DNA of 64,000 nucleotides from Streptomyces sp. MJM8645 (GTDB lineage: Bacteria > Actinomycetota > Actinomycetes > Streptomycetales > Streptomycetaceae): the NCBI RefSeq assembly GCF_001625365.1, contig NZ_LJJF01000002.1, positions 682,001 to 746,000 on the forward strand, in the 5' to 3' direction. The translations under genes and the position numbers were made by a program. Position 1 is the first letter of the stretch, and each line of letters opens with the position of its first letter. The notes under the pieces are model-generated. The model was not told the DNA's origin. It was given only the letters and a program-made list of their open reading frames with translations, and ran no database searches. Below are positions 30,927 to 53,669 of the stretch, piece after piece.

Positions 30927-31708
30927 GAGGCCTCCCTGTCGAGATATTGCCTGCAAGGCACGGCCGCCCGCCGGGCAGGTGGTCGATGAATTGGCGAGAG
31001 CCAGCTGAATACCGACTTCAGGTCCGTGATCCACAGGATTTCCCGCTCCTGTCGGACCCTTTCGAACCGTGTCGAAATAAGGGGTGTCCGCTCGTCGCAC
31101 GCACTCGATGACGCGGATCCGGTGCACCTTCGCCTGGAACGTACCACAGGGGTCAAGCCTTCGAGAAGTACGCCAATCCTGGCCCGGGGCTGGTTTACCG
31201 AGCCATATAACATCCTTTAACCAACCTTCGCAAGGTCCACAGGTTTCACCCAAATCAACGGTGCGATTCGCCCCAAAGTGCACCCTGGCACCGGCCCCGA
31301 GGCGGCAGCAGCGCCGGCGGAAGCGCCGGATCCGGTGTCGGGAGAGGCGGACGCAGCCCTATGTCCAGAAAGTCGCCCTCCCCGCACCTGCGAGAATAAG
31401 ACATTCCGTTTGGTCGTTCTTGAAAAATTCCCAGGGCACATACAGACTCGTTTCGTGAACGGACCCCGGCAGGCCGGAGGTCCGACCCGGGGCACCGATC
31501 CCCGATGGCGCCGACCGCACCTTCACGTACGCGCCCCCGGTTCCCCGCTCAATTCGCCGTCACCGGCATCGGCCCGCTCACGGGCGAACTCTTCGAGTTT
31601 TCAGAGCCCCATGCCCGGATGGCCGCACAGCGACATTCCTCCTCTCGCACACCCCGCGCTCGGACCACCGGCCGAGTGTCGCCAGCACGTACGGAAGGGG
31701 CAACCGAA
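30927..31708. promoter_or_regulatory. long divergent promoter region between oxidoreductase and NRPS operon
   Basis: 782 bp without a convincing gene. It is less GC-rich than its surroundings, notably GAGCCATATAACATCCTTTA at about 31199-31218, where a promoter is likely. A small dyad TGCCT-GCA-AGGCA occurs near 30948-30960. An open frame joins the NRPS from 31505, but that extension is Arg/Ser/Pro-rich, matches no C-domain sequence, and has a poor ribosome site. Confidence 0.45.
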
Positions 31709-34700: not shown

Positions 34701-37700
34701 ACGAACGCGCCCTGCCCGTGCCCGCGCCCGTGCGGCCGCCGGACGGCGGCGCGGACCCCGTCGTCCGGCTCTGGGCGCTGACGCTCGGCCGCCCGCCCGC
34801 CTCGAACGGGGACAACTTCTTCTCCTGCGGCGGGAGTTCACTCGACGCGGCCCGGCTCGTCGCCGAGGTCAACCAGGAGTGCGGGGTGCGCGTCGACCTC
34901 GCCTCGTTCTTCGGCGACCCCACACCGGAAGGGCTGCGGCACCTGATCGCGCGGGCCGCGCCCGCCGGCGGCGAGGGCCCGTCCACGGCTGCGCCCGCCG
35001 GTCTGTCGGCCGCCCAGCGGCGGCTGTGGCTGCTGCACCGGGCGGAGCCGGACAGCCACGAGTTCACCGTGTACTGGGCGCTGCGGCTGAGCGGTCCGCT
35101 GGATCCCGCGCGCCTGCAGTCGGCCTGGCGCGACGTGCTGACCGCCCACCCCGAGACGCGGCTGCGGGTCATCGACGACGACGTGGCCCCCGGGCGCGGG
35201 CAGTGGCCCCTCACGGCGTTCACCGTGAGCGTGCGGGACGTGCCCGGGCACGCCCTGGCGGAGCACCTGCGGCGCGTGGCCCACCGGCCCTTCGACCTGT
35301 TCGAGGAGCCCTTGGTCGAGCTGCGGGTGCTCAGGACCGGCCCCGAGGACCACGTACTGGTCTTCGTCGGCCATCACCTCGTGCTCGACCGCCGCTCCAC
35401 GGAGCTGATCACCGAGCAGTTGCTGAGCCGGCTGGCCGGCGGCCCGGCGCTCCCGCCCGCCCCGGCGGGCGCCGTCCCCGGGCCGTCGCCCGCCGAGGCC
35501 GAACGGCTGCGCCGGTTCTGGGCCGAGGAGCTCGCCGGCGTCTGCGCCCACTCGCCGGTCGCCCTCGGCGGGCCCCGGCCGGGCCCGCACCGGCGCACCG
35601 CGGCGACGGTCGGCGTCCCGCTGGACGCGGCGCAGTGGCGGCGCGTGACGGAGGCGGCGCGGACGCACCGCACCACGGCCCTCGTCCTCGTCCTGTCGGC
35701 GTTCGCGGTCACGGCCGACCGGTACGGCGCGGCGGGCGACGTCCTGGTCGGTACCACCATGGACGTCCGACCGCCCGGCTTCAGCGAGGCCGTCGGCCTC
35801 TTCGTCAACCCCGTCCCGGTACGGCTGCGCCCCCGCCCCGGCGGCACCGCCGGCGAGGCGGTCGCCCAGGCGCACGCGGCCCTCCTACGGGCGCACGCGC
35901 ACCGCGCGCACCCCTTCGACGAACTCGTCCGGGAGCTCGGTCTGCGGGCCGGTCCGGGGCAGGCCCCCCTGTTCCAGGTGCTGGTCGACCATGAGCAGCC
36001 GGCCACGGCGACGGCCACGCCGCCCGGCGTCCGCGCCCGCCCGGTGGAGATCCCGGCGGCCATCGCGAAGTACGACGTCGAGATCCTGCTCCGGGAGACC
36101 CCTGACGGCGCCCGGCTGGACGTGCTCCACCGCACCGACCGGTGGACGACGGACCAGGCCTGGCAGCTGGCCGAGCGGATCCGCGGGGCGCTGCTCGCGC
36201 TGGCCGCCGAGCCCTCCGCGCCGGCCGCGCTCCCCGTGGCACTGGACCCGGGGCGCCTCCCCCTGGAGTGGGGGCGGGGCCCGGAACCGTTCGCGCCGGT
36301 GGTCCCGGTGAGCGAGCTCGTCGCCCGGATCGCCCGGGAGGCACCGGAGCGGACCGCCGTGGTCGCCGGGGGCGAGCAGCTCACGTACGGGCGGCTGCGG
36401 GCCGACGCCCTGGACCTCGCCGCCCGGCTGACGGCCCGGCTGGCCGCCCAGGGCGCGGGCCGGGGCGCGGGCCGGGGCGCCCAGGTGGCGGTGCTGACCG
36501 AGCGGTCCGCGGGCCTGATGACCGCGCTGCTCGGCGTGCACTTCGCCGGTGCCGCGTACGTCCCGCTCGATCCCCGGCACCCCGACTCCCGCATGGCGGC
36601 GTGCCTGGCCGACTGCGGGGCCTCCGCCGTCGTCACCGACGCGGCCATGGCCGGGCGGGCGGCCACGTTCGGGCTGCCGCTGGTCCCCCTGGTCCCACTG
36701 GTCCCACTGCCCTCGACGGCCGATCCGGGCGCCGACCGAAGTCCCGCGCCCGCCGTCCCCCTCCCGCCCGGACCGCACGATCCCGCGTACGTCATCTACA
36801 CCTCCGGCACGACCGGGCGGCCGAAGGGCGTGGTGATCGAGCACGGCACGCTGGCCTCCTCCACGGCCGCCCGCCGCACCGTCTATCCGGGGCGGCCGGT
36901 CTTCCTGCTGCTCTCGCCCGCGGCGTTCGACTCGGCCGCGGCCGGCATCTGGGGGACGCTGTCGGCCGGTGGCCGCCTGGTCGTCGCGAGCGACGACGAG
37001 GTCCGCGACCCCGAGGCCCTGGTCGCCCTGATCGCCCGGCACCAGGTCACCCGGCTGCTGTGCGTGCCCTCGCTCCACGCCCTGCTGCTCACCGCCGCCG
37101 ACCGGGCCGGCCCCGACGCGGTGCGCAGCCTGCGCGAGGTCGTCACGGCCGGGGAGCCGCTCCCGGACGAGCTGCTGCGGCGCCACTTCGCCGTCCTGCC
37201 CCGGGTGGCGCTGATCAACGAGTACGGGCCCACCGAGGCCACCGTCTGGGCGAGCTACCGCCGCTACCACGGGCCGGAGGCCGTCGACATCGGCGGCCCG
37301 GTACCGGGCTACCGCCTCTACGTCCTGGACCACGCCCTGCGCCCCGTCCCCCCGGGGGTCGACGGCGAACTGTACGTCGGCGGCGCGGGCGTGGGCCGGG
37401 GGTACGTCGGCCGGCCCGCCGAGACGGCCGACGCCTTCCTGCCCGACCCGTTCAGCGGCGAGCCGGGGGCCCGGATGTACCGCACCGGCGACCGGGTGCG
37501 GTGGCGGGCGCCGGAGGCGCTCGCCTTCGTCGGCCGGCTGGACCACCAGATCAAGGTCCGGGGCCACCGGGTGCAGCCCGCCGAGGTGGAGGCGGCGCTG
37601 CGCGGCGCCGAGGGCGTCCGGGAGGCGGCCGTGGTCGCCGACGGCGGCGCGCGCCTCGTCGGCTTCGTCACCGGCGGCGGGCGGCCGGAAGCCGTACGGC

Positions 37701-38200
37701 GCGAAGTCGCCGAGCTGCTGCCGGAGTTCATGGTCCCCGCCGTCGTCCACGGGCTGGAGCGGCTGCCCGTCACCCCCAACGGCAAGGTCGACCGGCGGGC
37801 CCTGGAGCAGGAGGCGGACCGGCGCCGGGCCTCGGCGCTCGCCCGGCCCGCCGGGGACGTGTCGCCCGGGCACGCGGCGGTCACCGCGGCGTGGCGGGAG
37901 GTCCTGGGCGTCGTCGACGTTCCCGGCGACGTCAACTTCTTCGACCTCGGGGGGCATTCGCTGCTGGTGCCGGCGCTCCAGGAGGCCTTGCACCGGCACA
38001 CCGGCGTCCGGCTGCCGATCCTCGACCTCTTCCGCCACAGCACCGTCGCCGACCTCGCGGCCCGGCTGGCGCGCAGCACGACGGCCGCGCCGCCCGCCCC
38101 CGGGGCGGAACCACCGCCCTCAGCCGGATCGTCCCGTCGCCGACGCGGCGACGCGGCCCGTACGCTCCGCGACCGCCGCGCCCAGGAGGCCGACCGATGA
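31709..38200 (+). CDS. bimodular non-ribosomal peptide synthetase, C-A-T-C-A-T
   Basis: Encodes 2163 aa. The GTG start is chosen by GGAAGGGG about 10 nt upstream and by the C-domain start (FPLSAPEFGIWL). Domains (approximate residues): C1 25-460 (HHIACDG), A1 513-1000 (HTSGTTGRPKG, NGYGPTE, YRTGD, GKVDERAL), T1 1016-1080 (CGGSSLD), C2 1100-1507 (HHLVLDR, with Arg for the usual Gly), A2 1533-2030 (YTSGTTGRPKG, NEYGPTE, GKVDRRAL), T2 2055-2123 (LGGHSLL). Hand-read binding-pocket codes by analogy to GrsA are DVQSDGGIQK (A1) and DSALVAEVWK (A2). The acidic residue in A1 hints at a basic substrate. Having a C domain first means the chain starts from an upstream carrier or acyl donor. There is no epimerase. 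The stop overlaps the PKS start. Confidence 0.93.
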   Translation: MNRSDLVSDSGPASDAEFAFPLSAPEFGIWLTCRDQPESFNIHRVWELRGQLDEQALKGAVEETVARHPVFARRLVDEDGVPSWVPGAPQPRWTAVDTAAVDTASVDTAATADAAPWAPVGRHRFDLRRDCPVRVDLFRHRPDHHVLSLLVHHIACDGASLENLLADIGAAYNARTTGGPPFTPEPAPAPPAAAAPPTAPDPPAPAEPSRFWPLELADAQWPEALPRTPGPRTADADVLVLPLPPDEADAVRAAARRLRVTPYLMGLAALYAAFATQGNAPDVMVATPFASRTPATVPLVGCFARMVPLRQRWPSGASGAELCDGVRRTVAEALSHAHEPIHESADLFDAAAPGLTVSFQLRDPLPGPALGGLAVRAMEAVREPAAAPVADTPEAPGATEATEPPGTPEVPDALEAPGAAPPAEHPGATIGLTRFDLEFDLCLRADDASVTVTRRMRGGTTNAAAAELLAVYRRVLLALARDPGAPLPRSTSAATPSLIVAPTDPSEHAQPLMERFDAWVRTQPQRPAVRCGDDLLTFAGLDREVTRLAAALRRHGAGPGTAVGVLRERGVALVASVLAAWRVRAHVVALDPSQPDSRLAYVVADTGTRVVLCDPASRHRLDASLTIVDEAPGTKDAHAEAPDAENAHPEDARDARPHDLAYVLHTSGTTGRPKGVMVEHRGLAVLVDAQPAGAGAARVGVTAAVSFDVFFQQLLYLFRGSCLVVADQATYRDPQALVEWVERNDVRLLSTSPSMFAAMRPFGVEEMFQRTGLELDFGGEAVDATTWRRLRELGVRGSNGYGPTEVTIQTTWCGFDEYGSPSIGRPLDGTSAYVLGADLRPVPVGSRGELYLAGPLVTRGYLNAPALTAERYLPDPFAPAPGARMYRTGDRVTLGADGHLIYHGRTDHQLKVRGQRVDPYEVEEVLRAAPGVQDAYVARRGPTGTAGLLAWVTPRRPGPVPVPGELRGLAARRLAPAAVPAHIEVVDAFPLTLSGKVDERALPVPAPVRPPDGGADPVVRLWALTLGRPPASNGDNFFSCGGSSLDAARLVAEVNQECGVRVDLASFFGDPTPEGLRHLIARAAPAGGEGPSTAAPAGLSAAQRRLWLLHRAEPDSHEFTVYWALRLSGPLDPARLQSAWRDVLTAHPETRLRVIDDDVAPGRGQWPLTAFTVSVRDVPGHALAEHLRRVAHRPFDLFEEPLVELRVLRTGPEDHVLVFVGHHLVLDRRSTELITEQLLSRLAGGPALPPAPAGAVPGPSPAEAERLRRFWAEELAGVCAHSPVALGGPRPGPHRRTAATVGVPLDAAQWRRVTEAARTHRTTALVLVLSAFAVTADRYGAAGDVLVGTTMDVRPPGFSEAVGLFVNPVPVRLRPRPGGTAGEAVAQAHAALLRAHAHRAHPFDELVRELGLRAGPGQAPLFQVLVDHEQPATATATPPGVRARPVEIPAAIAKYDVEILLRETPDGARLDVLHRTDRWTTDQAWQLAERIRGALLALAAEPSAPAALPVALDPGRLPLEWGRGPEPFAPVVPVSELVARIAREAPERTAVVAGGEQLTYGRLRADALDLAARLTARLAAQGAGRGAGRGAQVAVLTERSAGLMTALLGVHFAGAAYVPLDPRHPDSRMAACLADCGASAVVTDAAMAGRAATFGLPLVPLVPLVPLPSTADPGADRSPAPAVPLPPGPHDPAYVIYTSGTTGRPKGVVIEHGTLASSTAARRTVYPGRPVFLLLSPAAFDSAAAGIWGTLSAGGRLVVASDDEVRDPEALVALIARHQVTRLLCVPSLHALLLTAADRAGPDAVRSLREVVTAGEPLPDELLRRHFAVLPRVALINEYGPTEATVWASYRRYHGPEAVDIGGPVPGYRLYVLDHALRPVPPGVDGELYVGGAGVGRGYVGRPAETADAFLPDPFSGEPGARMYRTGDRVRWRAPEALAFVGRLDHQIKVRGHRVQPAEVEAALRGAEGVREAAVVADGGARLVGFVTGGGRPEAVRREVAELLPEFMVPAVVHGLERLPVTPNGKVDRRALEQEADRRRASALARPAGDVSPGHAAVTAAWREVLGVVDVPGDVNFFDLGGHSLLVPALQEALHRHTGVRLPILDLFRHSTVADLAARLARSTTAAPPAPGAEPPPSAGSSRRRRGDAARTLRDRRAQEADR

Positions 38201-41160
38201 ACCGCGACCGTTCCCTCGACATCGCCGTCACCGGCATGACGGGGCGCTTCCCCGGAGCGGCCGATCTGGCACAGCTGTGGCAGGCCCTGCGCGACGGGCG
38301 GGTGCTGACCCGGCGCCTGAGCCGGGAGGAGCTGTCGGCCCGTGGCGTCCCCGCGTCCCTCGCCGACGATCCGGCCTACGTCCCCGTCCACGGGCCGCTC
38401 GACGATGCCGACCGCTTCGACCACGAGTTCTTCGGCGTCAGCCCCCGCGAGGCCGGGCTGACGGACCCGCAGCACCGGCTGCTGCTGGAGTGCGCCTGGG
38501 CCGCCCTGGAGGACGCCGGCCACAGCGTCACGGCCGGCGACGGGCTGCGGACGGCGGTGTACGCGGCCGCCAGCGGCAGCGGTCATCTGCGGGCCCTCCT
38601 GGCCTCCGGCTCGCTGGCGCCCCCGGAGTTCGAGGAGGCGCTCCTGGTCAACGAACGCGACTTCCTCGCGACGCGCATCGCCTACAAACTGGGGCTGACC
38701 GGGCCCGCGCTCACTGTCCTCACGGCCTGCTCCTCCTCGCTCGTCGCGGCCCACCTGGCCGTCCAGGCGCTGAACAACGGGGAGTGCGACCAGGCCCTGG
38801 TGCTCGCCGCGTCGGCCAACGCCCCCCAGGCGGGGCACCTGCCCATGGCCGGCGGAGTGATGTCGCTCAGCGGGCACTGCCGCCCCTTCGACGCCTCGGC
38901 GGACGGCACCCTCGGCGGCTCGGGCGCGCTGGGCGTCGTCCTGCGCCGCCACGAGGACGTGGCGGACGGTCCGCTCCCCCTGCACGGAGTGCTGCTGGGC
39001 TCCGCCGTCAACAACGACGGCACCGCCAAAGCGGGCTTCCTCGCGCCGTCGGCGGCGGGCCAGGAGCAGGCGATCCGCGCCGCGCTCGCCGCCGCCGACG
39101 TCGACGCCGCGTCCGTCGGCTACCTGGAGAGCCACGGCACCGGCACCCGCGTCGGCGACCCCATCGAGTGGTCCGCCGCCTCGGCGGTGTACCGATCGCT
39201 GGGTGCCGCTCCCGGCAGCATCCCGGTCGGCGCGCTCAAGGCGACCATCGGCCACCTCGACGCCGCCGCCGGACTCGCCGGGCTGGTGAAGGCGCTGCTG
39301 GTGCTCCGGCACGGGTACGTGCCCGCGCTTCCCGGGCTGAGCCGGGCCAATCCGCTGCTGGAACGGGAGGACTCGCCGCTGTCCCTGCCCACCGAGGCCG
39401 GGCCGTGGCGGGGCCCGCAGCCGCGCCGGGCCGCGGTGAGCTCGTTCGGCGTGGGCGGGACCAACGTGCACATGCTGGTGGAGCAGCCGCCGGAGCCGGC
39501 CGCCGCACCGCCCGCCCCGCCGCCCGGGCGGGAACGGCTGGTGGTGCTCTCCGCGAAGGACCCGCGGGCCCTCGCCCGCATGCGGGAGCGGCTCGCCGCG
39601 CACCTGGCGGACGCCGAAGCCGCCCCCTCGCTGGCGGACGTCGGCCGGACCCTCACCCGGCGGGCGGAACTCCCGTACCGCTCCTCGGCGGTGGGCGCGA
39701 ACGTGGCCGAGGTCGCGGCGGCGCTGCGGGCCCCGGCCGAGGCGACACCGGAGCCCGCGGCGCACCCCGCCCCGGCGCTGCTGCTCTTCCCGGGGCAGGG
39801 GACGCAGTTCCCCGGCATGGCGGCGCCCTTCGCCGCCGCCCTGCCCCCGTTCGCCGCCGCGCTGGACGCCTGCCTGGCCGCCTTCTCCCCCGGGCTCGCC
39901 CGCGAGGTCGACGAGGCGCTGCACGACGCCGCCTTCCCCGCCGAACGGCTCGCCCGGACGGCGCTCGCCCAGCCCGCGCTCTTCGCCGTCGAGTACGCCG
40001 CCGGGACGGCGCTGCTCGCCCTGGGCCTGGTGCCCTGCGCGCTGCTCGGGCACAGCCTGGGGGAGATCACGGCGGCGACCCTGGCCGGCGCCCTCGCCCT
40101 CGACACCGCGGCCCGCCTGGTGGCACGCCGGGCCCAGCTGATGCAGGACTGCGCCCCGGGCGCGATGGTCTCCCTGGCCTGCGGCGAGGCCGAGGCCCGG
40201 GCCCTGCTGGCCGAGACCGGCACCGAGCTGGGCGTCGCGGCGGTCAACGCCGCCACGAGCACCGTACTCGCCGGGCCCCCCGAGGCGGTGGCGGCCTTCC
40301 GGGAGCGGATCGGCGACCGGTACGCGGCCAAGGTGCTGCGGTCGTCCCGCGCCTTCCACTCCCCGCTGATCGAACCGGCGGCCGACGCACTGCAGGGCAC
40401 ACCGACGGCCGCCGAGGTGCGCCCCGCCGTCCTGCCGTGGATCGAGAACACGGAGGGGCAGCTGCTGCCCGAAGGCTCGCTCACCGACCCCGGCCACTTC
40501 GCCCGGGCCGCCCGCCGGCCGGTGCGCTTCGCGGACGCGCTGGCGACGGCCCGGGCGAAGTTCCCCGACGCCGTCGCGGTCGAGGTGGGGCCCGGCCGGG
40601 TGCTGAGCGGCTTCGCGGAAGCCGCCGGGCTGCCCGCGATCCCGCTGCTGGGCTCCTCGCCACCGGCACACGCCCCGGCGGCTTCCACCGCCCGCCCGGT
40701 ACTAACGGCGATCGGCCGGCTGTGGTGCTCCGGCCTCCCCCTGGACCTCTCCCCGCTCCAGGCGCCCGGGCGCTCCGTCCCCCTGCCGACCTATCCGTTC
40801 CACGGCCCGCGCCACCCGGTGCCGGCCGCCCCGGCACCCGGAGCACCGCCAGGACCACCCGCCCGGGCGGCCGTCGCCGACGCGGTCGAGCCCGTCGCGG
40901 ACACCCCCGTCGCGATCCTCCGCGCCCTGTGGGCCGAACAGCTGGGGGTGACCGACGTGCCCGACACGGCCGACTTCTTCCAGCTGGGCGGTGACTCGCT
41001 CACCGTGGCCCGGCTGGCGCGCGGGATGAGCCGCCGGTTCGGCGTCGACGTCCCCGTCGGCGAGCTGTTGCGGGCCCGGTCCATCGGGCTCCAGTACGCG
41101 CTGGTCGAGCGGTTGATCGCCCAGCAGATCCTTTCCGAGGCCGGGGAGGAGCTCGGATGA
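38197..41160 (+). CDS. type I polyketide synthase module, KS-AT-ACP
   Basis: Encodes 987 aa. The ATG overlaps the NRPS stop (ATGA). KS covers about residues 8-430, with the triad C178 (LTACSSSL), H313 (ESHGTGT) and H353 (KATIGHLD). AT covers about 525-820, with [10 protein letters not shown], the nucleophile S620 in GHSLGE, and RAFHSP (H721), the pattern of malonyl-specific AT domains. ACP Ser is S934 (LGGDSLTV). No KR, DH, ER or MT is present, so one malonate is added and the beta-keto group is kept. It is placed between two NRPSs, so it should extend a peptidyl chain and hand it to the next C domain. Confidence 0.93.
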
Positions 41161-44100
41161 CCGCCTCGCCCCTCGACCGGCTCACCCCCGGGCAGCGCGC
41201 CGAACTGGCCGCCCGGCTCCAGGGGCGCAGCCCCGCGGCCGCGCCACCGGCGGCTTCCGTACCGGCACTGGCGCCTTCGGAACCGGCGTTCCCGTACCGC
41301 CCGGAGGCCGTGGCCGGCAGCCACCCCCTCTCCGTCACCCAGTACCGGATGTGGCTCGCCGAACAGGCGTCCCCCACCGCGTCGGCGGCCTACACCGTGC
41401 CCCTGGCCCTCCAGCTCGCGGGCCCGCCGGACATCGACCGGCTCCGCACGTGCCTGGACGCCCTCGCCGCCCGCCATCTGGCCCTGCGAACCCGTTTCGG
41501 CCAGGAGAACGGGGTGCCCCGGCAGCGCTTCGACCTGCCCGCCCGCATCCCGCTGGAGATACGGGAACTGCCCGCGGGAGCGCCGGAGCGGGACCAGGCA
41601 CTCGACGCCGAGGCGGCGCGCCCGTTCCGCCTGGACCGGCCCCCGTACGTCCGCGCCGTCCTGCTGACCCAGGGGCCGCAGCAGCACACCCTCCTCCTGA
41701 CCTTCCACCACGCCGTCTGCGACGGATGGTCGTTGGGGGTGCTGATCGACGACCTGCTGGACGCGTACGCCGCCGGGGACGGCCCCGGTTCCACCCGTCC
41801 CGCGCCGGCCGCCCAGCACCTCGACTACGTCCGCTGGGAGCAGTCACCGGACGGGCGGGCCGCGCTGGCCGCCCACGCCGCCCACTGGGCCCGCTCCAGC
41901 GGCCGCGCCGACGACGGGGCCGAACTCCCCTTCGCCGTCGACCCGGCCAGCACGGAGCAGGCCGCCACGCAGCAGGCCACCGCGCAGCACGCCACCGCGC
42001 AGCAGGCCGCCCGGATGCCGCACGCCGAGCTGGCGCTGCCCCCGGACCTCACCCGGCAGGTCCACGCGTTCGCCCGGCGGCACGCCTGCACGGCGCACGC
42101 GGTGTGGCTCGCCGCGTTCGCGGCCACCTGGAGCGCGGTCACCGGCACCCGGACGGCCTCCGTGAGCGTTCCCACCGCCAACCGGGCGGCGGAGCGCTAC
42201 GACCTCACCGTGGGCGCCTTCGTCTCCGCGATGCCCCTCGCCCTGTCCCTGCCGCCCGCGCTGGGCTTCGCCGCGCTGGCCCGGCGGACCGGCGAGCAGC
42301 TCCTGACCGGCTCGCAGCACCCGACCCTCCCCCTGACCTCCGACGACACCGCCGTGCCCGTACCCGCCGCCGCCTTCGTCCTGACCCACGAGGACAACCG
42401 GCCGCGCCCGGCCGGCCCCCTCACGGTCACCCCCCTGCCGGTGCGCGTCCAGGGCGACCAGGGCGCGCTGACCGTGCAGCTCACGGAACACGCCGACACC
42501 GCCGTCGTCCGGCTGACCGGCTCCCCGCAGCACTACACCGACGCGGCCCTCGCCCGGCTCGGGCGGGCCTACCGACGCTGCCTCGCCTCCGTACTCGCCG
42601 CCCCCGACGCGCCGCTGGCCGCGCTGGACGCACGCGACCCGGCCGAGCGCGCGACCATCGCGGCCGCCTCGACGGCGCCGCCCGCGGCCGGGGCCCGCCT
42701 GCCCTACGAGGCCTTCGCGGACTGGGCGCGGCGCACCCCCGAGGCGTTCGCCGTCCGGGATGCCGCCGACGGCCACCTCACCTACCGGGCGCTGCACGAG
42801 CGCACCGAGCGCGCGGCGGCCCACCTCGCCCTGGCCGGGGTCGGCCCCGGCTCGGCGGTGGCCCTGGACGTGCCGGCGGGCGCCGACTATCCGACGCTGG
42901 CCCTGGCGGTCTGGCGGCTCGGCGGCTGGATCATCGCGCTACGCCCCGACGACCCCGCGGAACGCCGCCGCGCCCTGCTGCGCAGCGCCCGGGCGGACTT
43001 CCTCGTCCGCACGGCCGACGCCCCCGGGCACGACGCCGACGGCCCCGATGCCAACGAGGGCCGTACCGATGGGGACCACGCCACCGAGGACCGTGCCACC
43101 GGGCACGACGCCGACGGCGGCCCGCCGGGGAGGGCCCTGCGGACGATCCGGCTCCCCCGAGGGGGCGCGCGGGAGCTCCCGGCCACCGGCACGGCGGTGC
43201 CGCCCATGGCCCGCACGGGCCCGCAGGACCTGGCCTACGCGGTGTTCACCTCCGGCACGACCGGTACGCCCAAGTGCGTCCCGGTGCCGCTGGGGGCGCT
43301 GGCCAACGAACTCGCCTGGCGCCGCGAGGCGATCGGCCTCGCCGCCCCCGACCGGGTGCTCCAGACCATTCCCCTGGTCTTCGACCCGTCGCTGTGGCAG
43401 TGCTTCGGACCGCTGGTCGCCGGGGCCGGCGTGGTCTTCCCCGGCGTCGACCTCGGGGCACATCCGGCCGCCCTCGTGGAGGCCGCCCTTGAGCACTCCG
43501 CGACCGTGGTCGACGTCGTCCCATCGCTGCTCGCGGCCCTGGACGACGAGGATCTGCGCCGGCTGCCGGCCCGGGTCGTCTTCTGCGGCGGGGAAGCGCT
43601 GCCCTCGGCGCAGGCCGACCGTTACCTGCGCGTCGGCCACGGTGAACTGCGCAACCAGTACGGGCCGTCCGAGACCTGCATCGACGCCACCTCGTACCGG
43701 TGCACGGCGGGGGCCGAGGGCGGCACCGCCCCCGTGGGCCACCCCGTCTCCGGCGTGCGCCTGCACATCCTCGACGGCGCGCTGCGTCCGGTGCCGATCG
43801 GGGTCACCGGCGAGCTGTACATCGGCGGCACCGGGGTGGCGCGCGGCTACCGGGACCGTCCGGCCGAAACGGCGGCCCGATTCCTGCCCGACCCGGCCGG
43901 TCCCCCGGGCTCGCGGATGTACCGCACCGGGGACCGGGTGCGGTGGAACGCCGACGGGAGCGTGCAGTTCGTCGGCCGCAGCGACAACCAGGTCAAGGTG
44001 CGCGGCCACCGGGTGGAGCTGGAGGAGGTGGACCGGCACGTCGTGGACGCGCCGGGGGTGCGGGAGGCGGCGACCGTCGTCGTCGGGGAACGCGTCAGCC

Positions 44101-45773
44101 GCCTGGTGGGCTTCGTCACCGGCGAGCCCGCCCCGGACCCGGCGGCGGTGCGCGCCCATCTGGCCCGTACCCTCCCGCCGTACATGGTGCCCGGCGAGAT
44201 CCGGGTGCTCCCGCGGCTGCCGGTGACCGCCAACGGCAAGGCGGACCGCCGCGCGCTGCTGGCCATGGTGCGCTCCGCGCGCACGGCGGCCGGCCCCGCC
44301 GCCGCCCACGACCGGGTGGCCGCCGCCGTGGTGGAGGCGTTCGCGGCGGCGCTCGACCGGCCGTCGGCCACCCTGGACGACCATCTCTACGACCTCGGCG
44401 GGGCGTCGCTGGGGGCGGCCCGGATCGCCTCCGTGCTGAGCCGGCGCCTCGGGGTGGAGGTCCCCGTGCGCGCCGTCCTGACGCATCCGCTGGCCGCCGA
44501 ACTCGCCACCGAGGTCAGGACGTTGCTCGCCGCCGCGCGGCCGCTTCCCGCCGACGGCGCCGGAGCCGACGCGTCCCAGACGCCCGAACAGCTCCTGGTG
44601 GCCCAGCAGGAACGGGCCCTCGGACACCCCGCTCCCCCGATTCCACTGCTGCTCAGGCTCGATGCCCCCGTGGATCCGCAGGACGTGGAGCGGGCGGTCC
44701 GCGCACTGGTCGCCCGGCACGAGGCCCTGCGGCCGACAGCCCCGGAGGCGACACCGGAGGCCGCCGGAACGGGACAGCACGACGCGTGGCGGCCCTGCCC
44801 CGTGGCCCCGCTGCCGGACCGGCCCGCCCAGGTCCACTGGGACACCGCACTGGTCGAGCGGCCGCTGCCCGCAGGATCACCGGGGCTGGAGGTCGTCCTG
44901 CTGGCCGGGGAGGACGGCACCGTCCGGCACCTGCTGCTGAGGCTGGCCCGCCACCGGGGCGACGGCGCCTCCGTGGGCATCCTCGCCGACGAGCTCCTCG
45001 CCCTGCTCGCCGGCCGCGACCTGCCCCGACCGGCCCCGCGCTACAGCGACTACGCCCGCGCCAGGGCCGTCCGCCGCACGGCCCGGCGCGCCGAGCTGGA
45101 ACGGTACTGGCGCACCAGCCTGGGCCCGGTCCCCCCGGACCCGTTCGCCGAGCGCCGCACCGGCCCGAGGACCTTCCGCAACCACGGGGTGCGGAAGGTC
45201 CTCCCCGCCGACGCGTACGCACGCCTCCAGCAGGCGGGCCGGACGGCGGGGACGACCACCACGGCCGCCTTCCTCGACCTGCTCGGCCGGATCGTCTCCC
45301 GGATGTCGGGCGGCACGTCCACGGTGATCGGCATGCCGGTCTCCCACCGCTCGGCGGCCACCGAGGAATCGCTCGTCGGCCGCGCCGTCGACCTGCTGCC
45401 GGTGGTGCTCGGCGCCACCGGGGCCGGCCACGCCCACCGGGCGCTGCTGTCGGCCCTGGACCACGCCGACCTGCCGCTGCTGCACATCGCCGAGCTCGCC
45501 GATCCGGTCGACCCCGCGGTCCGGCCGCCGGTCTGCGCGGCCGGGCTGGTCGTCCACGGGCCGGAGGAGAACCCGGCCGTGGTGCCGGACGACCTGCCCC
45601 ACGACACCGTGCCCGAGCACTGGGCGGACCTCGACCTCGTCCTCCACGTGCAACCGGCCCGCTCGGGAGGGTGTTCGGTGCTCCTGACCGGAGCCGTCGA
45701 CCTCTTCCCGCAGGCCGAACTGCGCGGGCACCTCGCCCGGGCCCTGGCGGAGCTCGAACCCGACCAGAGCTGA
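41157..45773 (+). CDS. terminal NRPS, C-A-T-C* with degraded last C domain
   Basis: Encodes 1538 aa; ATG overlaps the PKS stop. The first C domain has an intact H184-H185-AVC-D189-G190. The A domain (about 515-1030) has [11 protein letters not shown] (Cys for the usual Gly), NQYGPSE, YRTGD and NGKADRRAL. The hand-read code is DPWDFGQIDK, with an Asp in the pocket; it matches no code I know. T (about 1051-1121) has LGGASLG. A final condensation-like domain (about 1145-1535) reads ARHRGDG (1264-1270) where HHxxxDG is expected, so the catalytic second His is Arg. No TE or reductase follows. Low-complexity insertions occur at about 265-285 (Ala/Gln) and 618-665 (Asp/His/Gly). Confidence 0.9.
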
Positions 45774-45876: not shown

Positions 45877-46776
45877 ATGGACGAAGAGCAGAAGTACCTG
45901 TTCGACCTGCGCGGCTACCTGGTCCTGGAGGACGTCCTCTCCGCGCGGGAACTCGCCGCCGTCAACGCCGCCCTCGACGGCCACGGCCTGTGGGAGGGCG
46001 AGAACAAGCTCGGATACCCGCTGCTCAAGCGGTACAACCCGTTCATCGCCAACGCCGGCCCGCTCCACACCACCCCGCGCCCGGTGCGCGACCTGATCAG
46101 CCACGAGAAGGTGCTGCCGCACCTGGAGGAGGTACTCGGCGCCGACCTGCGCTACGACGAGGGCCAGGTGCTCTACGCCCGCAAGGGCGCCGGAGCGCTG
46201 ATCCTGCACAACGGCAACACCCCGTGGGAGTACCCGCCGCTGACCTACCAGGTCCGCGACGGCCGGATCTACGGCGGACACCTGATCGTCGCGTTCTGCC
46301 TCACCGACGCCCTCGCCGACCAAGGCGGCTTCGCGGTGGTCCCCGGCAGCCACAAGTCGGCCTTCGAGATCCCGGAGGACTTCCAGACCTGGCAGAAGGT
46401 CGGCGACTGGGTCTCCCGCGTCCCGGTCAGGGCCGGCTCGGTGGTCCTCTTCGCGGACACCGCCACCCACGGCAGCTGGCCCTGGGCCGCCGACTTCGAA
46501 CGCCGGGTCGTCTTCTGCCGCTACACCGCGGGCATGGTGCAGCACACCGCTCCCGCGCCCGTGCCCGAGGACCTCCCGGGCGAGGAGTGGACCCCGGTCG
46601 AACGCCGGCTGCTCCGCCCGCCGTTCGCCTGGCACTTCCACGACCGGGGCAGGGGCTACACGGAGCAGCAGCGCACCTCCGTGCGCACCGCCGAGGGCTG
46701 GACGATGAACGACCACTCCCAGCAGATCATCACGCTCGCGGAAGACGCGGAAGAGTCCGCCGAGGGGCGGGGTTAG
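45877..46776 (+). CDS. PhyH-fold Fe(II)/2-oxoglutarate enzyme with HxG motif
   Basis: Encodes 299 aa; AAGGGGAAAAG precedes the ATG. It is a phytanoyl-CoA-dioxygenase-type protein: FDLRGYLVLEDVLSARELAA, VLYARKGAGALILHNG, FCLTDALADQGGFAVVPGSH. Iron ligands read H111-N-G113 and H198 (THGSW), with R209 eleven residues later for 2-oxoglutarate. The usual Asp of HxD is Gly, as in Fe/2OG halogenases (SyrB2 HxA, WelO5 HxG), where chloride takes the vacant site. However, some PhyH relatives with an LHGG motif are of unknown activity. It lies in the NRPS operon 2 bp before the P450, so it is probably a tailoring enzyme. Confidence 0.82.
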   Translation: MDEEQKYLFDLRGYLVLEDVLSARELAAVNAALDGHGLWEGENKLGYPLLKRYNPFIANAGPLHTTPRPVRDLISHEKVLPHLEEVLGADLRYDEGQVLYARKGAGALILHNGNTPWEYPPLTYQVRDGRIYGGHLIVAFCLTDALADQGGFAVVPGSHKSAFEIPEDFQTWQKVGDWVSRVPVRAGSVVLFADTATHGSWPWAADFERRVVFCRYTAGMVQHTAPAPVPEDLPGEEWTPVERRLLRPPFAWHFHDRGRGYTEQQRTSVRTAEGWTMNDHSQQIITLAEDAEESAEGRG

Positions 46777-46778
46777 CC

Positions 46779-48179
46779 ATGGCGAGCATCACCGTGAGTT
46801 CGGTCGGCTACGAGGAGTTCGACCAGGAGCTCGGCAGCGACCCCCTGGGGCTGATGACACGGCTGCGCGACGAGGGGACGGTCAGCGCCGTCCCGCTGGA
46901 CGACGGCACGCGGCTGATCGTCGCGGCGGAGCCCGCCGTCGCCGCCGCGGCCCTCGCCCACGGCACCCGCAACCACCGCGGGCTGCTGCGCGAACTGGTG
47001 GGCAGCGGACTGTTCGTGGTCGCCTCCGGGGAGCAGTGGCGCCACCGCCGCGCCCTGCTGCGCCCGATGTTCTCGGCCCGGGCCGTGGCCGAGTTGCACA
47101 CCCTGGTGCTGGAGAGCGCGGAGGACTTCGTCCGCCGTCGGCTGCTGCCCGGGGCGGGCCGCGAGTTCGACCTCGGACACACCCTCCAGCAGCTGAGCAT
47201 CGAGATCATCCTCCGGCTCGTGGACCCGGAGCTGACCGGCGCCGAACTGACCTCCCTGGCCTCGACGGTGGACACGGCCGTCCACTACCTGGACCGGCGG
47301 CTGTTCGCCCCGGAGACCGTCACCGACGCGGACGGCGAGGCGTTCGCCCGGGACAGGGCGGTGCTGGAGGAGTTCATCGCGCACCGGGCCGCCCGGGCGC
47401 CCGCGGCGGCCACGGCCGACGGGGTCCTGCCGTCGCTCGTCGCCGCCCTGCACCAGCGGGGGGACGCGCTCGGCGACCGCCCCGAGGACGTGCTGCGCGA
47501 GGAACTGATGTCGATCTTCGTGGCTGGCGTGGAGACCATGGGCACCCTGCTCACCTGGACCTTCCACAACCTGGCCGGCTCTCCCCCGGCCCTGGCCCGC
47601 ACCCTCGACGAGGTCCGCTCCACCGACCTCCGCTCCCTGCGCGCCGCGCCGTCGATCCCCCAGGGAACCTTGCCGTACACCCTGGCGGTGGTCGAGGAAT
47701 CGCTGCGGCTGCACCCGCCCGCGTGGGCGCTGTTCCGCCGCATCGACACCCCCGTCGAGGCGGCCGGCGTTCGGCTGGAGCCCGGCGACCTCGTCCTGGC
47801 CAGCACCTACGCCATCCACCGCGCCCCGGCCCTGTGGGAGGCGCCCGAGGAGTTCCGTCCGGAGCGCTTCCTGGGCCGGCGCCCGCCCGTCCAGCAGTAC
47901 TTCCCCTTCGGGGCGGGCCCCCACCAGTGCCTGGGGCGGCAGTTCTCACTGCTGGAGGCGCAGCTCGCCACGGCGACGATCCTCGCGCACGGCCGGTTCA
48001 CCCTGCTGGGCGACCGGGCCGCGACCGGGCTGCGACCGGCCATCGCCCTGACCCCGGACCCCAGCCCGCGCGCCGTGTTCACCCCGCACCCCGACCCCGG
48101 CCCGTACCCCGGCCCCGGAACCGGCACCGCAACCACCGGCCTCGGCAACGCCCGCAAGCACCCCTCGGGGGCACGATGA
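46779..48179 (+). CDS. cytochrome P450
   Basis: Encodes 466 aa. The heme loop FPFGAGPHQCLGRQFS has the ligand Cys; the K-helix is EESLRLHPP (ExxR); the I-helix is FVAGVETMG, with the oxygen-activating acid-Thr pair (ET). The C-terminus has a Pro/Gly/Thr-rich extension of about 35 residues after PDPSPR. It starts 2 bp after the PhyH gene, and its stop overlaps the A-T didomain start (ATGA). P450s paired with a free-standing A-T protein normally hydroxylate the aminoacyl-carrier (NovI, NikQ), so this is the likely job. Redox partners are not encoded here. Confidence 0.92.
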   Translation: MASITVSSVGYEEFDQELGSDPLGLMTRLRDEGTVSAVPLDDGTRLIVAAEPAVAAAALAHGTRNHRGLLRELVGSGLFVVASGEQWRHRRALLRPMFSARAVAELHTLVLESAEDFVRRRLLPGAGREFDLGHTLQQLSIEIILRLVDPELTGAELTSLASTVDTAVHYLDRRLFAPETVTDADGEAFARDRAVLEEFIAHRAARAPAAATADGVLPSLVAALHQRGDALGDRPEDVLREELMSIFVAGVETMGTLLTWTFHNLAGSPPALARTLDEVRSTDLRSLRAAPSIPQGTLPYTLAVVEESLRLHPPAWALFRRIDTPVEAAGVRLEPGDLVLASTYAIHRAPALWEAPEEFRPERFLGRRPPVQQYFPFGAGPHQCLGRQFSLLEAQLATATILAHGRFTLLGDRAATGLRPAIALTPDPSPRAVFTPHPDPGPYPGPGTGTATTGLGNARKHPSGAR

Positions 48180-49978
48180 CGACCGCGCCGCACGCCCGGA
48201 TCGAGCAGTGCTTCACCGCCGTCGCCGAGGCGTTCCCCGAGCGCGTGGCGCTGGCCGACCGGTACGGCGAGATCCGCTACGGGGAACTCCTGACGCGGGC
48301 GCGCGCCGCGGCGGCGTCGCTCCGGGCGAAGGGCGTCGACTCCGGTGCCGCCGTGCTGATCGTCGGGCACGGCGACCAGCGGACCGTCCTCGCCATGCTG
48401 GCCGTCCTGATGGCGGGCGGCTGCTACGTCCCGGTGGACCCCCGGTACCCGGCGGACCGCGTCCGGCTCATGGCCGGCACGGCCCGGGCGGCCCTGGCCC
48501 TGCACGCCGACCGCCCACCGGTGGCGGACCTGGGCATCCCCGTGCACGACATCCCCTCCCTCCTCACGGAGCGGACCACCACAGCGGTGCCGTCCGCACC
48601 GGCCGGCCCCGACGACCTGGCCTGCATCATGTTCACCTCCGGCACCACGGGAGCCCCCAAGGCCGTGGGCGTCACCCACCGGGGGATCACCGGGCTGGCG
48701 CTCGGGGCGGAGTCCCTGCGGCTGGGCCCCGGCGACGGCGTGCTCCTGCACTCCACCCTCGCCTTCGACGCGTCCACGTTCGAGATCTGGTCCCCGCTGC
48801 TGGCCGGGGCCCGGATCACGGCCGCGGACCACCACCCCCTCGCGCTCCACGAACTGGCCGCCCTGCTGGCCCGGCCGCAGATCACCACGGCCTGGCTGAC
48901 GGCCCCGCTCTTCCGCCTCATGGCCACCCACCACGGCCCGGCGCTGGGCACCCTGCGCACCCTCGTCACCGGCGGTGACACCGTCCCGGCCGGCGCCGCG
49001 CGCTCCTTCACCGCCGTCCACCCCGCCACCCGGCTGGTCAACGGCTACGGCCCGACCGAGAACACCACCTTCAGCACCCTGGGGGACGCCGCCGCGTGGG
49101 ACCGCGAGCAGTCCGCCGCGTTCCCCATCGGCGCCGCCATCGCGGGAACGACGTGCCACGTCCTCGACGAACGGCTGCGGCCCGTCGCCCCGGGCGCGGA
49201 GGGCGAGCTCTACCTCGGCGGCCCCCGGCTCGCCCGCGGCTACCTGCACGACCCCGCCGCGACCGCCGCGCGGTTCGTGCCCGACCCCTTCTCCGCCCGG
49301 CCCGGTGCTCGCATGTACCGCACCGGTGACCGCGTACGCCACCTCCCCGACGGCGCCCTGGACTTCCTCGGGCGCGCCGACGACGAGGTGAAGGTCAGGG
49401 GCTTCCGCACCGATCCGGCGGAGGCGGCGGCGGTCCTCGCCGCCGACCCCGCCGTCGACGACGCCGTGGTCATCGCCGGCACCGGGCCCGACGGCGCCGT
49501 CCTGACCGCCTTCCTCACCCCGGCGTCCGTCGACACCGACGCGGTGCGCCGGGGCGCGTGGCAGCGGGCCCCGCGCCATCTGGTGGCCGAGCGGATCATC
49601 GCGGTCGACGCCCTTCCGCTGGGGCCCACCGGAAAGGTGGACCGCGCCGCCCTCGCCCGTCTCGCGGACGACGCGGACGACGCGGACGCCCGGACGCACG
49701 ACGCGCCCGGCACCGCCGCCCCGGGCCACCCCGCACTCGCCGCGGCCTGGGAGTCCCAGACGGGGCACCGCCCGCTGCCCGACTCCGACTTCTTCGCCGA
49801 CGGCGGCACCTCCCTGGGGCTGATGCGCCTGGTCGAGCAGGTGCGCACCCAGCTCGGACCGACCCTCGACTTCGCCCAGCTCTACGCCGCTCCCACGTAC
49901 GCCGATCTGTGCCGGCTGACCGCCCCGAGCGCCACCCCGACACTCCCCGGCGACCGAGCACAGGAGGCCGCCGCATGA
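48176..49978 (+). CDS. stand-alone A-T didomain, valine-like specificity
   Basis: Encodes 600 aa. An adenylation domain (residues 5-510: MFTSGTTGAPKA, FDASTFEIWSPLL, NGYGPTENTTF, YRTGD, GKVDRAAL) is followed by a carrier domain (about 525-595) with FADGGTSLGLM. The hand-read pocket code is DAFWVGGTFK, which is close to the well-known valine code DAFWIGGTFK. There is no condensation domain. It therefore loads an amino acid for modification, very probably by the overlapping P450, before transfer to the main assembly line. Alternatives are a related branched residue or direct use as starter for C1. Confidence 0.9.
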   Translation: MTTAPHARIEQCFTAVAEAFPERVALADRYGEIRYGELLTRARAAAASLRAKGVDSGAAVLIVGHGDQRTVLAMLAVLMAGGCYVPVDPRYPADRVRLMAGTARAALALHADRPPVADLGIPVHDIPSLLTERTTTAVPSAPAGPDDLACIMFTSGTTGAPKAVGVTHRGITGLALGAESLRLGPGDGVLLHSTLAFDASTFEIWSPLLAGARITAADHHPLALHELAALLARPQITTAWLTAPLFRLMATHHGPALGTLRTLVTGGDTVPAGAARSFTAVHPATRLVNGYGPTENTTFSTLGDAAAWDREQSAAFPIGAAIAGTTCHVLDERLRPVAPGAEGELYLGGPRLARGYLHDPAATAARFVPDPFSARPGARMYRTGDRVRHLPDGALDFLGRADDEVKVRGFRTDPAEAAAVLAADPAVDDAVVIAGTGPDGAVLTAFLTPASVDTDAVRRGAWQRAPRHLVAERIIAVDALPLGPTGKVDRAALARLADDADDADARTHDAPGTAAPGHPALAAAWESQTGHRPLPDSDFFADGGTSLGLMRLVEQVRTQLGPTLDFAQLYAAPTYADLCRLTAPSATPTLPGDRAQEAAA

Positions 49979-50709
49979 CGCAGGTGATGCAGGATCAGGA
50001 CAATGATCTGGCCAGAATGGACGGCCTGTGGATCCGGGTGATCGAACCCCAGTCACCCGCCCGGCACGCCCGGGACTTCGCCCAGGTCCACACCTGGCTG
50101 CGCCAGTACATCAGCCGGCCCCACGACGAGATCGGCCGCACCGGGCCGGTCTGCCCCTTCATCCCGCCCGCCCTCAGCGGCAAGGACGCCCAGTTCAGCT
50201 TCCGCTACGACATCACCGGGGAGGACGAGCGGCAGCTGCGCGAGGCCCTGGAGGCGGAGATGTCCACGTTCGCCCTCGGCACCGAGCGCAGCCGCACCCA
50301 CACCGGAGCCTCCCTCGACTGCCGCATCGTGGTGCTGCCGGCCACCGGGCCGGAGGGCTGGCGGGTCCTCGACGAGGCGTACGAGGGCCTGAAGAACAGC
50401 GCGGTCGCCCACGGGCTGATGGTCGGTCAGTTCCATCCGCACTGCGACGAACGGGCCGTGCGCAACCCGCTCTTCCCCGTCTCCGTGGCCCCCGTCGGCC
50501 TGTTCGCGATCCGCCGGATGGCGCCCCACGATGTGCTCTTCTTGTACAAGCACCGCGCCTGGTTCAAGATTTACGATCAGAACTTCCGCGCCCACTACGA
50601 ACGGGGCCGCGTACGCGACCCGCTCCTGCGCGAGTTGTACGTGACCGCTGTGGAACGTCACGGCCTGCCCGAGCTCGCCCCGAAGGCAAAGGAGAACGAC
50701 GCGCCGTGA
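49975..50709 (+). CDS. GPVCPF-motif protein (probably DUF6875)
   Basis: Encodes 244 aa; ATG overlaps the A-T stop. The N-terminal part contains [20 protein letters not shown], a block I associate with a family of uncharacterised proteins from natural-product operons (probably DUF6875). Later blocks are [20 protein letters not shown], ...[20 protein letters not shown] and [13 protein letters not shown]. Conserved Cys and His residues could bind a metal or act in catalysis, but no known active site is recognised. Position between the A-T didomain and MbtH implies a role in amino-acid loading or tailoring. Confidence 0.6.
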
Positions 50710-50942
50710 CCGAGGACCAGTACCACGTCGTCGTCAACCACGAGGAGCAGTACTCGATCTGGCCCACCTACCACGACGTCCCCCAGGGGTGGCGGACGGT
50801 GGGCGAGCCGGCGTCCCGCGAGGACTGCCTGCACAGGATCGAGGAGGAGTGGGACGACATGACCCCGAAGTCCGCCCGGAGCCAGGCGGCCCCCGCCGCA
50901 CCGGTCCCCGCGGGCCCGGCCGGCTCCCCGGGGTCCCCGTGA
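50706..50942 (+). CDS. MbtH-family NRPS accessory protein
   Basis: Encodes 78 aa from a GTG overlapping the previous stop. It has the family signature [19 protein letters not shown] and then [17 protein letters not shown]. MbtH proteins bind A domains and make them soluble and active, so it likely serves one or more of the four A domains here. The C-terminal tail is Ala/Pro-rich and about 15 residues longer than usual. Its stop overlaps the GTG of the third ATP-grasp gene. Confidence 0.95.
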
Positions 50943-52225
50943 CCGACACGCTTCCCACGGTCGCCGTCGTCTACGGCAGGGGGTCGGCGGGGCCCGCCGA
51001 GATCCTCGGCGCCGCCCGCGGCCTGTGCGACGTGGTCTTCGTCTGCGACCCGGCGGTACCGGGCGTGGCGCCGCTGCTCGCGGGGATGCGCCGGCGGGCC
51101 CGGGTCTGCGAGATCAGCGGGCACGACACCCCCGCCGCCGCCGAACTGCTGCGCGGGCACGGCCCGGTGGGCATCGTCACCTTCAGCGAGTACTGCCTCG
51201 CCGGCACCGCGCGGCTCGCCGAGGCCCTCGGCCTGCCCTACCACCGGCCCGGCACCGTCCGGCTGCTCACCGACAAGGCCGACCAGCGCGCGGCGTTCGC
51301 TGCGGCGGGGGTCGACCACACCCCGAGCGTCGTGGTGCGCTCCGCCGCCGAGGTCGACGCCGCCGTGGCCCGCCTGGGCTACCCCGTGGTGCTCAAACCC
51401 CGTACCGGGGCGGGCAGCCAGGACACCGTACGGCTGGCGGACCGCGAGCAGCAGCGGCGCGCCCTGTCCGACCTCGGCCTCGCCCCCGGCCTCGGCCCCG
51501 GTGACGGGCGGGCGGGCCCGGACAGCGCCCCGCGTGACTTCGTCGTGGAGAAGTACCTGCCCGGGGACCCTGCGGTGGCCGGACCGGACTGGGGGGACTA
51601 CGTCTCCGTCGAGGCCATCGTGCAGCACGCGGAGGTCACGACCCTCTGCGTCACCGGCAAGTTCGCCCTGGCGGACCCGCTCCGGGAGACCGGGCTGTTC
51701 CTGCCCGCCACCCTCACGCCCGCCGTGGAGAAGGACGCCGCCGAACTCGCCGCGGCCGCGGTCCGGGCCCTCGGCGTGACGACCGGGGTGACCCACACGG
51801 AGGTGAAGCTCACCCCGGACGGCCCCCGCGTCATCGAGGTCAACGGACGCGTCGGCGGGCGCGCCGTGGGCCTGCTGGACCGGGCGCTGGGCATCGATCT
51901 GCTCGCCCTCGCCTTCGAGTTGGCCCTGGAACGCACCGTCGAGCCCGTCACGGCCCCCCGGCCGGCGGCGGTGACCTTCGAGTACTTCATCGTGCCACCG
52001 CGCACGGTCGGCACCGTCCGGGCGATCGACGGCGCCGACGCCGTACGGGCCCTCCCCGGCGTCGGCGAGGTCGACGTGGCGACGGCCCCGGGGCAGCCCG
52101 TCGACTGGCGCCACCCCGCACAGCGCCTGGCGTTCGTCCGGGGCACCGTCGCCACCCATGACGAGCTGCTCCGGCTCATCACATCCGTCCATGACAGATT
52201 CCACCTGGAGTTCGCACCCCAGTGA
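50939..52225 (+). CDS. ATP-grasp carboxylate-amine ligase (third)
   Basis: Encodes 428 aa from a GTG overlapping the MbtH stop. The N-terminal domain begins [20 protein letters not shown]. The lobe has [38 protein letters not shown] and [16 protein letters not shown]. Metal-binding residues lie in [20 protein letters not shown], then GRVGG. It looks like an amide-forming ligase, like the two upstream homologues, but is clearly different in sequence. Because it is coupled to MbtH and the NRPS operon, it is the most likely of the three to act directly on the peptide or its precursors. Confidence 0.82.
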
Positions 52226-52346: not shown

Positions 52347-53669
52347 ATGCTCGACAAGGTGCGACAGCCACTGAAACACCGGCCCTTCCGGCGGGTGTGG
52401 CTGGGCGAGACCGTCTCCCTGGTGGGGGACTACAGCTTCGAGGTCGCCTTCATCTGGCTGATCCTGAACGAGACCGGATCGACGACCACGCTGGCCACGA
52501 TCCTGCTCGTCCAGGCCGTCCCCCGGGGCGTGCTGATGCTGGTGGGCGGCGCGGTGACCGACCGGCTCTCCCCGCGCGCCGTCATGTTCTGCTCCCACAC
52601 GCTCCGGGGGCTCGCCGTCGCCACGCTGGGGCTGATCGCCCTGACCGACCACGTGAGCACGTGGCACCTCTATGCCCTCGGCGCGCTCACCGGCGTCGCC
52701 GAAGCGTTCTTCTGGCCGGCGGCCGGCAGCATCATCCCCTCCCTCCTGCCGCCCGAGCACCTCGCCCGGGGCAACGCGCTCGTCGGCTTCGGAGAGCAGG
52801 GGGCCCGGCTGCTGGGGCCGATCCTGGGCGGCGCCCTCGTGGCCGCGGTGGGGACGTCGACCACCATCCTGCTCAACGCCTTCACCTTCTTCTTCGCCGC
52901 CCTGACGGTCTTCGGCGCGCCCCGCAGACAACCGGCCGACCAGGCGGGCGACCAGACTTCCGACCAGTCCTCCGACCAGGCGGGCGAGGCCGACGAGGGC
53001 GCCAAGTCGTTCACGGCGATCCGCCGGGAGATCGTCGAAGGGCTCCGCTACGCCGGACGCAGCCGGGAGATCCGCACCGTCCTCCTGCTGATCGGCGCGG
53101 CGGCCCTCAGCTACAGCGGCCTCTTCAGCGTGGGGCTGCCCGCGCTGGCCAAGACCTTCCCCCAGGGCTCACTCGCGCTGGGCGTCCTGCTGTCCGCCTG
53201 GGGGCTGGGGCAGCTGATCGGCACCATCGGCGCGGTCTTCACCGGGCTGCCGCGCCGCTGGGGACTGCTCATCATCGGGATGACGCTCTGCGAGGGGACC
53301 GCCTTCGTGCTGCTGGGCTTCCTTCCCAGCGTGTGGAGCGCGGCGGTGGTGCTCACCCTGCTGGGGATCGGCGTCGCGTACTCCAGCGACGTCGCGCTGC
53401 CGACGTTCATCCAGACCAGGACCCCGACGGACGTGCTGGGCCGGGTCAGCAGCGTGATGGAACTGCCCCGGGCCACGCTGGAACCGCTCTCCATCGCGGC
53501 CATGGGCCTGCTGGTCGGCTGGGACATACAGTGGGCGTTCGTGCTGGCCGCGATCCCCATGCTGGCCGTCGGCCTCCACCTGGCCCTCGACCGCGAGGCC
53601 CGCGCGCTGAGCACCACGGCCCCGGAGGAGCATCCGGCGGCCAAGGATCCGGACCCCCTCGTCTTATAG
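52347..53669 (+). CDS. MFS transporter, probable exporter (second)
   Basis: Encodes 440 aa with about 12 helices; AGAGAGG precedes the ATG. Features include FRRVWLGETVSLVGDYSFEV, LMLVGGAVTDRLSPRAVMF and the conserved WPAAGSIIPSLLP helix. The central cytoplasmic loop carries a Gln/Asp-rich low-complexity string (residues about 193-210, DQAGDQTSDQSSDQAGE). It belongs to the drug-efflux-like part of the superfamily. It closes the rightward biosynthetic unit, 121 bp after the ATP-grasp gene. It is likely to export the product and give self-resistance. Confidence 0.87.
   Translation: MLDKVRQPLKHRPFRRVWLGETVSLVGDYSFEVAFIWLILNETGSTTTLATILLVQAVPRGVLMLVGGAVTDRLSPRAVMFCSHTLRGLAVATLGLIALTDHVSTWHLYALGALTGVAEAFFWPAAGSIIPSLLPPEHLARGNALVGFGEQGARLLGPILGGALVAAVGTSTTILLNAFTFFFAALTVFGAPRRQPADQAGDQTSDQSSDQAGEADEGAKSFTAIRREIVEGLRYAGRSREIRTVLLLIGAAALSYSGLFSVGLPALAKTFPQGSLALGVLLSAWGLGQLIGTIGAVFTGLPRRWGLLIIGMTLCEGTAFVLLGFLPSVWSAAVVLTLLGIGVAYSSDVALPTFIQTRTPTDVLGRVSSVMELPRATLEPLSIAAMGLLVGWDIQWAFVLAAIPMLAVGLHLALDREARALSTTAPEEHPAAKDPDPLVL

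Follow-up and report, generated by a model that had tools for sequence, protein, structure and literature searches.

A PhyH-fold protein of the LHGG type with a vacated iron-ligand position in a Streptomyces NRPS-PKS cluster

An operon of Streptomyces sp. MJM8645 that encodes non-ribosomal peptide synthetases (NRPS) also encodes a PhyH-fold protein whose iron-binding motif has Gly where ordinary members of the family have Asp. The locus raises the question of whether such a protein would transfer oxygen or, as the preliminary description had proposed by calling it a candidate halogenase, chlorine. We addressed this in a window of 64,000 nucleotides (positions 682,001 to 746,000 of contig NZ_LJJF01000002.1), to which all coordinates below refer.

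The gene, its iron site and its cluster

The open reading frame at 45877-46776 (+) encodes a protein of 299 residues (N terminus MDEEQKYLFDLRGYLV). It starts with ATG at 45877, downstream of a good ribosome site (AAGGGGAAA), and carries a strong coding signal (GC3 0.94). Against Pfam PhyH (PF05721) the protein scored 60.2 bits (E 4.5e-16), above the gathering score of 22 bits. The gene and the sites discussed below are as follows.

45877..46776, + strand: gene for a probable LHGG-type PhyH-fold Fe/2OG oxygenase (299 aa), assigned from ORF, translation, Pfam PhyH, HygX as best PDB relative, and clade
46150..46161, + strand: R92-Y-D94-E95, strand preceding the HxG motif, from alignments; weak candidate for a substitute ligand
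46207..46215, + strand: H111-N112-G113, first metal His and vacated carboxylate position, from alignment
46468..46470, + strand: H198, distal metal His, aligned with H206 of the HygX chain
46501..46503, + strand: R209, predicted 2OG-carboxylate Arg, near-invariant in alignment A5; role assigned from the PhyH family

The HxD/E...H facial triad typical of catalytic PF05721 members was thus replaced by H111-N-G113...H198. In an L-INS-i alignment, H111-x-G113 fell in the same columns as HSD or HQD of ordinary PhyH enzymes and HQA or HQV of SyrB2-type halogenases, and one protein of the LHGG clade described below (from Cupriavidus, L106) carried HHE there. On the strength of this alignment and of the Glu in L106, H111-x-G113 occupies the true facial-triad position. 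G113 is a replacement of the triad carboxylate by Ala or Gly of the sort seen in SyrB2-type enzymes. The preliminary description had read H111-N-G113 in place of HxD, with H198 and R209 intact, and every one of these residues was recovered under its original number.

Among 395 genomes sampled from the family, an 82%-identical homologue was found in a member of another genus (G746); searches of 69 further genomes from the genus, and of 395 further ones sampled across the phylum, detected no match to the protein. Conservation between the two homologues starts at Met1, and dN/dS is ~0.19. The blocks 101-120 and 181-220, where both motifs with their metal and 2OG residues lie, do not differ between them, G113 included. 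Synteny with G746 extends over the whole of 30.1-53.6 kb of the window. Purifying selection, identical motif blocks and synteny together mark HxG as a maintained feature, neither an error nor decay. A same-family homologue (L009) lies among genes for a phosphate-type transporter and a transposase, which gave no functional hint.

The gene had been placed in an NRPS operon, rightly so: it lies between a C-A-T-C NRPS gene and genes for a cytochrome P450 and a stand-alone A-T didomain. The neighbouring genes, all on the + strand, are listed here.

31505..38200, + strand: NRPS, C-A-T-C-A-T (Pfam)
38197..41160, + strand: type I PKS module, KS-AT-ACP, without ketoreductase (Pfam)
41157..45773, + strand: NRPS, C-A-T and a terminal C domain whose HHxxxDG is degenerate (Pfam, sequence)
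46779..48179, + strand: cytochrome P450 (Pfam 4.4e-44)
48176..49978, + strand: stand-alone A-T didomain (Pfam, sequence)
49975..50709, + strand: DUF6875 protein (Pfam 1e-44)
50706..50942, + strand: MbtH-like protein (Pfam 2.4e-22)
50939..52225, + strand: ATP-grasp L-amino-acid-ligase-like protein (Pfam, NCBIfam)
52347..53669, + strand: MFS exporter (Pfam, NCBIfam)

Judged by these domains, the setting is a small antibiotic-type hybrid NRPS-PKS cluster, for which no counterpart among named clusters was identified. Reading the pocket of the stand-alone A-T by eye, with GrsA numbering as reference, gave the code DAFLVGGTFK (DAYLIGGTFK in G746); we take both codes to be close to valine-type codes, which suggests a Val-like substrate. 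The terminal C domain of the 41157-45773 NRPS reads ARHRGDG where HHxxxDG is expected, and because of this replacement it is probably inactive or unusual in action. The DUF6875 protein, encoded within the operon, has a conserved counterpart in the syntenic cluster. The NRPS region has an ATP-grasp ligase gene on either side (26637-27926 and 50939-52225), the latter alone being part of the conserved block. Just outside that block, a protein encoded at 28949-29818 (-) combines, in an odd pairing, HEAT repeats with a biotin/lipoyl-attachment domain.

Relationship to HygX, other LHGG proteins and the halogenases

The top PDB sequence match was HygX (entries 4xc9, 4xca, 4xcb and 4zpi; E 5.4e-9), whose sequence (VLYLHGGNSELL) reads LHGGN and has no HxD. 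Both proteins have the PhyH fold, an LHxG iron motif without carboxylate and the distal His, fall into one clade and belong to actinomycete natural-product tailoring. They differ in that identity is only ~22%, that HygX has HGG and our protein HNG, and that HygX acts on an aminoglycoside and is encoded in a sugar cluster, the present gene in an NRPS-PKS cluster. A HygX orthologue (L107:7992-8768) was seen next to APH(7''), the gene for hygromycin phosphotransferase, in a sugar-antibiotic cluster close to the end of a linear Streptomyces plasmid of 840 kb.

An AlphaFold model built from 9 sequences reached pLDDT 61.7 and pTM 0.66, with pLDDT below 50 at residues 112-131, the loop after H111; a model from 2 sequences reached pLDDT 34.7. 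With the 9-sequence model, HygX made up the first 14 Foldseek matches (E 2.5e-13), and VIA-align returned many PhyH-type oxygenases, HygX included, at Z 16-17. SyrB2, WelO5 and BesD structures did not appear among the best 50 matches listed in either fold search.

According to their titles, the HygX structures contain iron, Ni and 2OG, or Ni, 2OG and hygromycin B. The abstract of the 2015 paper on the HygX structure reportedly mentions a variation in the metal coordination of HygX. As reference 17 of PMC8748661, HygX is cited for oxidative cyclisation backed by genetic and enzymatic evidence, and orthoester formation in orthosomycins is described as an oxidative C-O coupling (PMC8210684; PMC6030086). 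Going by the PDB titles and this citation, an LHGG site is able to hold metal together with 2OG and to transfer oxidation with no halogenation. Within the LHGG/HygX clade, Fe/2OG oxidative activity is known for HygX only.

Further LHGG, VHSGG and LHGL proteins were gathered by a pattern search of viral contigs and by genome searches; two scans of viral sequences with the first alignments had given no match. The protein carries the features common to this group in alignments A1, A5 and A6: [LVI]H-x-G, an N-terminal Y-x-x-D/E, a G[GS]-x-x-x-x-x-GSHK-like segment and the distal HG. One further protein, encoded on a viral contig (L064:694-2295, +; 534 aa), is a fusion in which an N-terminal half that looks sulfotransferase-like by eye precedes a PhyH domain of the LHGG type.

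Trees were computed for sets of 56 and 58 proteins, with and without the motif columns. The preliminary description had proposed a phylogeny against halogenases and LHGG-type proteins, and its caveat that a PhyH group with an LHGG motif exists turned out to be the right lead. Our protein fell within a small clade of LHGG proteins, HygX among them (SH-aLRT 99, rising to 100 for a clade of 15 rows with the motif columns removed), separate from ordinary HxD PhyH proteins; SyrB2-type halogenases formed a clade of their own (support 100), with our protein outside. Common descent with the other LHGG proteins is thus firm, the place of HygX itself being less sure: a profile without HygX-like rows scored it above all ordinary PhyH proteins, narrowly (64 bits versus 56 for the best of them), so that it is chiefly the tree, in which HygX has a long branch, that supports its placement.

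Forcing the protein and its 82% homologue into the halogenases cost 31.7 log units (p-AU 0.045), a borderline value that disfavours this arrangement. Uniting the LHGG clade as a whole with the halogenases cost only 1.5 log units (p-AU 0.476), and this single-origin tree, which is not rejected, still allows a shared loss of the carboxylate. Against the NCBIfam model for chlorinating enzymes (TIGR01762) our protein scored 15.5 bits, far under the curated cut-off of 226.3; true members in related genomes reached 285-475 bits, and the organism's own genome gave a sub-threshold match only. The A5 profile matched SyrB2 and CytC3 no better than at 6.5e-5 and 2e-4, in the C-terminal part.

Position 113 is mostly Gly in the LHGG clade, with Leu in a viral protein (L039, LLHGLSF) and Glu in L106. 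Either residue would be expected to leave no chloride pocket, and, as read from these two sequences, an empty site for chloride is not retained by all of the clade. The Glu protein (L106:5992-6771) is 79% identical to another one encoded on a Cupriavidus plasmid (L109:2995-3624, with a shortened C terminus); the two differ as LHHE (GAG) and LHHG (GGC). D94 is almost invariant in the clade, and every member seen has either E or H at position 95.

Oxygen or chlorine transfer at the vacant site

Known enzymes with a carboxylate-free site fall on both sides of the question. Human AspH, of another sequence family and with another substrate, has the same HxG...H iron site, holds water at the empty place and hydroxylates, with no halogenation observed (PMC13168262; PMC10947486). 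SecA, a proven HxG halogenase, clusters with dioxygenases (PMC12171316). Since one hydroxylates and the other halogenates, the HxG motif alone, on these analogies, decides nothing between the two reactions. EctD and other HxD PhyH enzymes share the fold and Pfam family of our protein and keep the complete triad that it lacks.

We consider it probable that the protein is a two-His, carboxylate-free Fe/2OG oxygenase that tailors the peptide or one of its building blocks, with hydroxylation or formation of a C-O bond as the likeliest reaction. Iron would be held by two protein ligands only, H111 and H198, with bidentate 2OG presumably anchored by R209 as in the family; the usual place of Asp or Glu, left empty by G113, would be filled by water or substrate. 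The ferryl species would then take hydrogen from its substrate, which may be an amino acid, a residue bound to a carrier or the cluster's finished peptide/polyketide. The likeliest outcome would be hydroxylation by oxygen insertion, or else the oxidative closure of a C-O ring, and not a C-Cl bond. An oxygenase is favoured over a halogenase because the nearest kin include HygX and not the known chlorinating enzymes. Weighing against it are the distance to HygX and the dependence of HygX's clade place on a long branch, together with the Gly strictly kept in the protein's own 82% pair. A stand-alone A-T beside such a gene, as found here, is also the usual arrangement for carrier-bound chlorination (SyrB1/SyrB2).

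It is rather unlikely, although worth keeping in view, that the protein belongs to a halogenase lineage distinct from that of SyrB2, in which chloride would bind at the G113 vacancy and pass to a residue held on a carrier, perhaps the Val-like one from the neighbouring A-T. SyrB2/CytC3-type halogenases (TIGR01762) do resemble it in belonging to the PhyH superfamily, in the two-His site without carboxylate and in their NRPS context with an A-T didomain; the intact distal His and Arg, the precedent of SecA and the unrejected junction of the whole LHGG clade with the halogenases point the same way. These halogenases differ in their HQA motif and their separate clade, and the low TIGR01762 score, the disfavoured placement of the query pair, the oxidative cyclase HygX as nearest solved relative with the same motif type, and the clade members that have Leu or Glu in this position all argue against chlorination. 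A broader form of the idea, in which the LHGG clade or its NRPS-associated branch consists of independently evolved Fe/2OG halogenases that chlorinate a carrier-bound residue, HygX being a derived oxygen-transferring member, we regard as unlikely. Of the proposal that the gene encodes a candidate halogenase, the missing carboxylate ligand therefore stands, while kinship with HygX, the example of AspH and 15.5 bits against a cut-off of 226 make halogenation not the best reading.

Could another acid stand in for the lost Asp? A hydroxylase of the normal two-His-one-carboxylate kind, rewired so that the acid comes from the preceding strand (e.g. E95 or D94), would agree with the conservation of both positions in the clade. 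Such compensation is weakened by L106, which has the same Asp-His pair beside a complete HxE triad; the aligned residue is Gln in EctD-type rows, and the structural model is weak just after H111. We hold this to be improbable. That the protein is degenerate or non-catalytic appears very improbable: one metal ligand is lost, but the distal His and Arg are kept, the active-site blocks are unchanged in a homologue under purifying selection, and the gene is retained in the syntenic cluster of a second genome.

Taken together with HygX and AspH, this gene indicates that the rule by which genome miners equate HxG or HxA with 'halogenase' is unsafe. The LHGG clade offers a natural Gly/Leu/Glu series, including the Cupriavidus Glu and Gly orthologues, for probing oxygen versus chlorine transfer, and the gene also flags a small, rare NRPS-PKS cluster.
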